From positions 1 through 64,000 of the forward strand of contig JABDLD010000064.1 in NCBI GenBank assembly GCA_013001885.1: a DNA stretch of 64,000 bases, read 5' to 3'. The notes beneath the pieces were generated by a model that saw only the letters and a program-made list of their open reading frames with translations, searched no databases and was not told the DNA's origin. The position numbers and the translations under genes were made by a program. Shown piece by piece: positions 47,594 to 48,245 of the stretch. Position 1 is the stretch's first letter. Every line of letters starts with the position of its first letter. This DNA is from Lysobacterales bacterium. GTDB lineage: Bacteria; Pseudomonadota; Gammaproteobacteria; Xanthomonadales; SZUA-36.

Positions 47594-47696
47594 CAGCGTA
47601 ACAGGTCAATCTGAATGAAGCAGCCTGAATACCAGGCTATGTGACAAAATGCGTCAGTTCTACTGACACTTATCGACACTTTTGCTAACTTTTCAA

Positions 47697-47714
47697 ATTC
47701 TGAGTTCTCAGAAT
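47697..47714. promoter_or_regulatory. Perfect 18-bp inverted repeat (possible activator site)
   Basis: ATTCTGAG-TT-CTCAGAAT is perfectly symmetrical (8+2+8). It is centred about 85 bases before the start predicted for the sigma54-like promoter at 47764. A second dyad, GTCAG-TTCTA-CTGAC, lies at 47653-47667. Such placing is usual for enhancer-binding proteins; the protein is unknown. Confidence 0.45.
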
Positions 47715-47763
47715 AAAACCCTATACCTCTGTTTTACATAGTAAATTCACGTTTTTTATATTT

Positions 47764-47779
47764 TGGCTCGAATCTTGTA
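47764..47779 (+). promoter_or_regulatory. Sigma54-like promoter
   Basis: TGGCTCG-AATC-TTGTA aligns without gaps to TGGCACG-N4-TTGCW, with mismatches at position 5 (T for A) and at the -12 C (T). The predicted start is about 47790. An overlapping sigma70-like TATATA/TATAAG hexamer (47778-47785) is an alternative; no good -35 accompanies it. Confidence 0.4.
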
Positions 47780-47797
47780 TATAAGTAGGTGAAGTAA

Positions 47798-47890
47798 CTA
47801 ACTGACTGGTAGCAGTTAGCGGGAGAAACCGGAGCTCCGCCCCTCTTTGCCCAATCGGGGCTCCGGCCTCCCTCCTTCACAACCGGAGGA
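47798..47890 (+). promoter_or_regulatory. Structured leader with competing hairpins
   Basis: CTAACTG and CAGTTAG (47798-47804 and 47813-47819) form a first stem. CCGGAG (47829-47834) can pair with CTCCGG (47861-47866), reinforced by CCCC (47840-47843) with GGGG (47857-47860). CCGGAG recurs at 47883-47888, inside GGAGGA, and can pair with the same CTCCGG. The two pairings exclude each other. I recognise no named riboswitch. Confidence 0.4.
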
Positions 47891-47923
47891 TTTTCTGCCA
47901 CTGAAATCAATGGAGCTTCTGTC

Positions 47924-48127
47924 ATGGATGACAAGCTGAAGAAATTTTTCGACTTTCTTACCCGGCAACAAAAACATAAGAATCATCGCCACCTGCAATC
48001 TGACGACAGAGCAGCAGGCACAAGCCTATTCCTTGAGTCTGCTGTCCGTCCACACATCAGCTTGAAAGCCCGAATGCTTGGGGGACGAGCAAAAACGGTC
48101 ATGCGCCTAGGGGGTTCAATGCGCTGA
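47924..48127 (+). CDS. Hypothetical short basic protein (67 aa), uncertain
   Basis: The ATG has GGAG 8 bases upstream and begins MDDKLKKFFDFLTRQQKHKNHRH, an amphipathic, strongly basic start. About one third of all residues are Lys, Arg or His. Codon use is normal for the first 25 codons and then turns to rare codons (AGA, CTA, GGG, GGA, CGA), so only part may be coding, or the transcript may be a non-coding RNA. I recognise no domain. It sits between the structured leader and the terminator at 48193. Confidence 0.35.
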   Translation: MDDKLKKFFDFLTRQQKHKNHRHLQSDDRAAGTSLFLESAVRPHISLKARMLGGRAKTVMRLGGSMR

Positions 48128-48192
48128 TCACCAACAAGTGTCCGCTGTGATCTGAACACCGCGCAGGACAGGACATTGCTTTTACTATTCCG

Positions 48193-48218
48193 ACCCGGCG
48201 TAAGCCGGGTTTCTTTTT
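48193..48218 (+). terminator. Intrinsic terminator before truC
   Basis: ACCCGGC and GCCGGGT form a 7-bp stem with loop GTAA, followed by TTCTTTTT. It ends whatever is transcribed from the 47.6-48.2 kb interval and separates it from truC, whose ATG is 28 bases further. Confidence 0.85.
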
Positions 48219-48245
48219 GCGCCGTATGCATGGAAACTGCAGCAC

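Follow-up and report, generated by a model that had tools for sequence, protein, structure and literature searches.

Sigma-54-dependent small RNAs are well known (GlmY/GlmZ, Qrr and CrcZ), and the sites of GlrR/QseF upstream of glmY and glmZ follow the pattern TGTC-N10-GACA. In Pseudomonas aeruginosa, PilR sites have been described as TGT-N11-AGA with nearby GTCT elements, and until 2018 pilA was the single known target of this regulator (PMC6058289). A search of the open-licence literature returned no PilR-controlled small RNA. RsmU of Xanthomonas in turn illustrates that an RNA without an Rfam match can bind RsmA (PMC7694677).

The stretch of DNA analysed here (the window, 64,000 nucleotides from a Lysobacterales bacterium) contains an interval at 47594-48245, between ilvE (NCBIfam ilvE_I) and truC, in which direct reading recovered every element that an initial annotation had placed there; all features below lie on the forward strand. 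That annotation had proposed an orphan, regulated and terminated transcription unit, and its promoter, an upstream site, a structured RNA and the terminator all proved to be conserved. Judging from sequence comparison, the interval very probably encodes a folded regulatory RNA of about 430 nt, apparently belonging to an undescribed RNA family that spans one gammaproteobacterial family. That it is such an RNA gene under the control of PilR and sigma-54 we consider likely, a grading that does not extend to the mode of action of the RNA. The predicted transcript runs from 47790, a start placed at the usual distance from the -12 element, to 48222, and it is conserved from promoter to terminator. 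The intrinsic terminator at 48193-48218 (ACCCGGC-GTAA-GCCGGGT followed by a T-run) was found as described, and its stem is retained in nearly all copies.

A sequence search with the interval as query yielded matches in 12 of 41 genomes (the window's own and 40 relatives), and in most matching relatives conservation sets in at the sigma-54 element or close to it and extends toward the terminator. Over the longer matches, the unit and its copies in other family genomes share 69-80% DNA identity. The lack of conservation in relatives that had been named as evidence against the proposal was not what we observed: other genomes of the family have kept the unit, and its own genome contains it a second time. 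When the core DNA pattern was compared with a public genome collection, it returned seven members of the window's group and one chance-like match within a coding-like stretch.

A search of 39 genomes from the window's GTDB family showed that the interval between ilvE, an optional truC and an NYN gene holds a stand-alone unit composed of a double upstream site, a -24/-12 promoter, a structured RNA and a terminator. Translation of the neighbours revealed the gene order ilvE-[unit]-(truC)-NYN-srkA in R1-type loci and most class B loci, and the ilvE-NYN placement is kept even in loci whose RNA carries a 5′ half unrelated to the window's. Because this order persists despite an unrelated 5′ half, the RNA gene looks ancient within the family. 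Since truC lies downstream in the same orientation in the window and in loci L005, L007 and L011, the transcript might be a long 5′ leader or attenuator of truC. However, a strong terminator separates the unit from truC, the paralog elsewhere in the genome stands before a terminator of its own, and in most relatives (the family genomes being mostly drafts) truC was not found in the fetched flank, where the NYN gene lies on the opposite strand instead. On the grounds of terminator and synteny we therefore rejected the truC leader, which we hold to be highly improbable, and truC looks like an optional neighbour of the unit.

The sigma-54-like promoter claimed at 47764-47779 (TGGCTCGAATCTTGTA) shows the conserved TGGC-N7-TTG at a fixed distance from the upstream site. 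Tested against TGGC(A/C)CG-N4-TTGC(A/T), its spacing is exact and TGGC-N7-TTG is invariant in 14 copies, for which the family consensus is TGGCCCGATTCTTGCA. The mismatch noted earlier at -12 is real: the window carries GT for GC, which is common to the four orthologues of the window's genus, while L008 has GA and both the other relatives and the second copy in the same genome have the canonical TTGC. Because GT is confined to the window's genus, it represents a clade-specific change, and it should weaken the predicted promoter there. The genome encodes both kinds of protein that the initial annotation had proposed to look for, namely rpoN (PF04552 match) and enhancer-binding proteins (PF00158 matches); by gene context and sequence, the latter were named as NtrC-, NtrX-, PilR- and PspF-like, plus two others.

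Further upstream, alignment of the upstream region of the 14 copies (A1) revealed an invariant TGACA-N6-GTCA at 47642-47656 (site 1, a predicted PilR box) and, at a nearly fixed distance from it, a second TGAC. The latter opens site 2 (TGACACTTATCGACA, TGAC..GACA) at 47664-47678, in which TGAC is invariant and GACA mostly retained. Of the two inverted repeats noted earlier as dyad sites, the first (GTCAG-N5-CTGAC at 47653-47667) forms part of this strictly conserved double site. The second, at 47697-47714, is indeed a perfect 8+2+8 repeat ATTCTGAGTTCTCAGAAT (ATTCTGAG-TT-CTCAGAAT), but we rejected it as a regulator site since it is not conserved in the 14-copy alignment. The predicted activator site is thus larger than the dyad seen at first, and it is common to the pilin promoter.

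This sharing emerged from a screen of the genome for -24/-12 sites, the upstream DNA of which was then compared. The pilin promoter near a PilS/PilR-type gene pair (C52:98317) carries CTGACGTTTTTTGTCAC, which on the complementary strand reads exactly as GTGACAAAAAACGTCAG of the RNA loci L005 and L006, and a PilR-type activator is encoded near pilA in this genome. Across the family, the joined pattern of site and promoter falls into two spacing classes. At short spacing (111-116 bp, one case of 123), a type IV pilin lies directly downstream in all 14 loci checked, including the genome's own pilSR-pilA, and site 1 precedes each of these promoters. At long spacing (135-139 bp), the pattern is mostly followed by RNA-type units; a few long-spacing loci drive short ORFs or a secreted-like protein rather than RNA, and the same holds for genus g7 loci with a spacing of 125-126 bp. 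The strict pattern of double site and promoter gave no control matches in 300 genomes of the order, and its real matches fall nearly all in the window's family; two of the four outside it are pilin promoters, in two genomes of another family. Because the unit and the pilA promoters carry the same pattern, its most likely assignment is to the PilR/RpoN (type IV pilus) regulon, although we infer PilR binding only from the site shared with pilA.

The unit could also answer to another enhancer-binding protein, such as GlrR, NtrC or PspF, and share half-site letters with pilA by chance. The genome does hold NtrC, NtrX, PspF and two further activators, and the TGTC-N10-GACA site of GlrR/QseF resembles that of the unit. 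We nevertheless judge this unlikely, as it is the whole site, second half included, that equals the pilA site in many genomes.

The same type of promoter was also encountered before protein-coding genes. In genus g7, the upstream site and promoter (spacing 125-126) of L180, L181 and L182 precede a short protein, of 66 aa in L180 and L181 (MNTELSLMAAEVTFLRDTLRQ...) and with a related frame in L182. L151, L158, L152 and L184 have small proteins (MIVLKPPVEKQELVFGDF.., MLMLKTPEAPKKELLLGDY..) or a secreted-like protein downstream, and are candidate additional members of the PilR regulon. L149 (G045:C53) precedes a repetitive protein with LVDKLERYRKARELK repeats; the idea that this locus makes a CsrB-like RNA rich in ANGGA hairpins was rejected because the repeat (LVDKLERYRKARELK) is protein-coding.

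The predicted RNA folds better than 100 of 100 dinucleotide shuffles (z -2.5), and it comprises a 5′ and a 3′ domain, which were described by covariance models. The 5′ domain (model R1, 47786-47879) consists of a hairpin ACUAACUG..CAGUUAG followed by a long hairpin with the C-rich loop CCCCUCUUUGCCCAAUC. In its alignment (A3) seven pairs are changed on both sides, a number reached in none of 500 shuffles and dropping strongly when the pairing is slid. R1 finds 12 of the 39 family genomes as well as the paralog of about 200 nt in the same genome, and among 300 genomes of the order no R1 5′ domain was found outside the family. The hairpin that follows this domain differs among relatives, and we found no support for the conformational switch that the term "switching leader" had implied.

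The 3′ domain (models R2/R3, 48057-48191) reaches further. R2, built from nine sequences, is sufficient to find units of another genus (L157, L160 and L150); the extended model R3, which matches the window at 1.8e-37, adds L159, L161, L153 and L148, plus weaker matches in L164 and L163. All of these fall within units, and the window gave one further match outside its unit, at chance level. Covariation supports 16 of 27 pairs in the extended alignment, which was itself fitted to the model. Two features are the most widely retained, namely a hairpin of the GCUUGGGGRACAAGC type and a compound hairpin whose apex reads GGGG. In the window, the first (UGCUUGGGGGACGAGCA, 48075-48091) exposes the loop GGGGGA, is nearly invariant and also occurs in non-coding units of other genera; the second (48097-48129) has the apical loop AGGGGG, comprises helices 2-3 of the covariation alignment and likewise keeps its GGGG apex in other genera. 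The loops rank among the best-conserved stretches of the RNA. At Rfam gathering scores, neither the window nor 15 related loci gave a match, and relaxed matches within the unit were weak and scattered, so that a known riboswitch or sRNA was rejected. Beside the RNA gene in L009, L012 and L013, sub-threshold matches to the Rfam cspA thermoregulator (51-61 bits, gathering 78) overlap a cold-shock-like gene encoded on the opposite strand.

The second copy in the same genome (L003 4163-4385; G000:C76:74162-74385), on another contig, is a complete short unit of about 200 nt. Its promoter TGGCTCATATCTTGCA has the canonical TTGC at -12, and it retains the 5′ domain and a terminator but is devoid of the 3′ domain and of an ORF; its terminator follows about 200 nt after the promoter and leaves no room for one. 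Multiplied units were also observed elsewhere. In L159 1639-2102 (G051:C367), a short unit with promoter and 3′ domain occurs twice in tandem, while G015 has three clear copies of the 5′ domain (L008, L017 and L019) and a weak match at C47. In L017 and L019 of this genome the G-rich hairpins of the 3′ domain are lost and the C-rich loop is altered.

The short basic ORF claimed for the unit is present, with its ribosome site, as 67 codons at 47924-48127 (ATG at 47924, GGAG upstream), but it is retained only in some relatives. The frame is open in seven of the 14 copies, being the four members of the genus, L008 (where AAG occupies the ATG position and two in-frame ATGs follow within a few codons), L009 and L010 (ATC instead of ATG). 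In the other seven, among them the second copy of the same genome as well as L011, L012, L013 and L018 with their good RNA domain, it is absent or broken. A hairpin UGUCAUGGAUGACA at 47920-47933, with ANGGA in its loop, overlaps the ORF start; this GUC-ANGGA-GAC hairpin and its GGA survive the loss of the ATG in three copies (L008, L017 and L018), and the GGA is lost in L010.

An excess of synonymous change, and with it a modest coding signal, is confined to the last 26-28 codons. There, the minimum changes over 26 codons are 13 synonymous to 10 non-synonymous, compared to 7:15 and 3:21 in the other frames, and the last 26 codons differ from the first 41 (Fisher p 0.016), the first 38 or so displaying no clear excess. 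Within the genus, 25 synonymous pairs were observed against 10.1 +- 2.7 simulated. The unit might accordingly be read as a small-protein or dual-function mRNA, expressing a 67-aa basic protein the translation of which is regulated by the leader; the well-placed SD and ATG, the seven open copies, the synonymous excess near the 3′ end and the existence of same-type promoters that do drive short ORFs would all fit. Yet the first 38 or so codons are without coding signal, half of the copies dispense with the ORF, its product has no Pfam or NCBIfam match, and no conserved ORF is apparent in g8 units, which makes this an improbable account of the unit as a whole. A clade-limited small protein is possible, but it is not the conserved core. 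The initial annotation had left open a regulatory RNA, a small protein or both; what stays constant across the family is the predicted RNA rather than the ORF.

As to how the RNA would act, we tentatively rank sequestration of CsrA/RsmA through GGA loops first, because GGA tops the loop triplets, csrA is present in the genome (PF02599 match, 76-aa frame), and RsmU lacks an Rfam match yet binds RsmA. GGA is the most enriched of the 64 triplets in hairpin loops (79 against 44.9 expected, a statistic inflated by the relatedness of the copies), with GGG next and almost as enriched. Over entire transcripts it is not enriched (245 against 242), and both counts include the protein-coding L149, which slightly favours GGA. 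Since overall enrichment is lacking and the copies are related, the loop enrichment is only suggestive; the short paralog in the same genome has hardly any GGA.

A base-pairing or sponge role under the same control is as likely as CsrA/RsmA sequestration, and hence equally tentative. The C-rich 5′ loop CCCCUCUUUGCCCAAUC would then pair with G-rich ribosome sites of target mRNAs, and/or the G-rich 3′ loops would titrate an sRNA that has a C-rich loop and represses pilus mRNAs. Such a role would suit the strong conservation of the loops, and sX13 of Xanthomonas represses G-rich mRNAs, pilus genes among them, via its C-rich loops (PMC3771888). The C-rich loop is, however, absent from the units of other genera, and its complements in the genome amount to four one-mismatch sites against eight control sites, three of the four lying inside ORFs and away from start codons. 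Antisense targets of this loop were consequently rejected, as nothing in the genome exceeded the control.

In the reading that we prefer, PilR, activated by PilS, would occupy the double TGACA/GTCA site some 110 bp upstream, driving sigma-54 RNA polymerase from the -24/-12 promoter. The resulting heavily folded RNA of about 430 nt, ending at the terminator, would come under common control with the pilin. Through its exposed GGA/GGGG hairpin loops it may sequester a partner, CsrA/RsmA being the first candidate, and pilus signalling would thereby gain a post-transcriptional branch. The RNA of the window's clade may code for a small basic protein as well. That PilS/PilR and sigma-54 directly make, together with pilin, a CsrA/RsmA-antagonising RNA (in one clade also protein-coding) which replaces the usual GacA route and constitutes a new, family-confined RNA is, as a complete proposition, more speculative. 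A conserved RNA gene with the pilin-type upstream site would in itself mean that pilin or surface sensing by PilSR feeds a post-transcriptional arm as well. With the covariance models, a promoter rule without control matches and the paralogs at hand, the finding is directly testable.

Compared with GlmY/GlmZ, Qrr and CrcZ, the unit is likewise a stand-alone RNA gene with a -24/-12 promoter, distant activator sites and a terminator, but its activator site is of the pilin type and its sequence and structure match no Rfam family. CsrB, RsmX/Y/Z and RsmU of Xanthomonas share with it the GGA in hairpin loops, in a genome that has csrA. They differ from it in that the unit has few GGA sites, GGGG loops and a promoter of PilR type rather than GacA type, its binding of CsrA being hypothetical. 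With sX13 of Xanthomonas it has in common an exposed C-rich loop and a possible link to type IV pili (PMC3771888), but it carries one such loop instead of three, lies at the ilvE-NYN locus instead of polA, measures about 430 nt and bears G-rich loops in addition. The PilR/RpoN promoter of pilA has the same TGAC..GTCA upstream site and -24/-12 promoter, whereas the output of the unit is an RNA and its site stands about 25 bp further from the promoter (135-139 bp versus mostly 111-116 bp).
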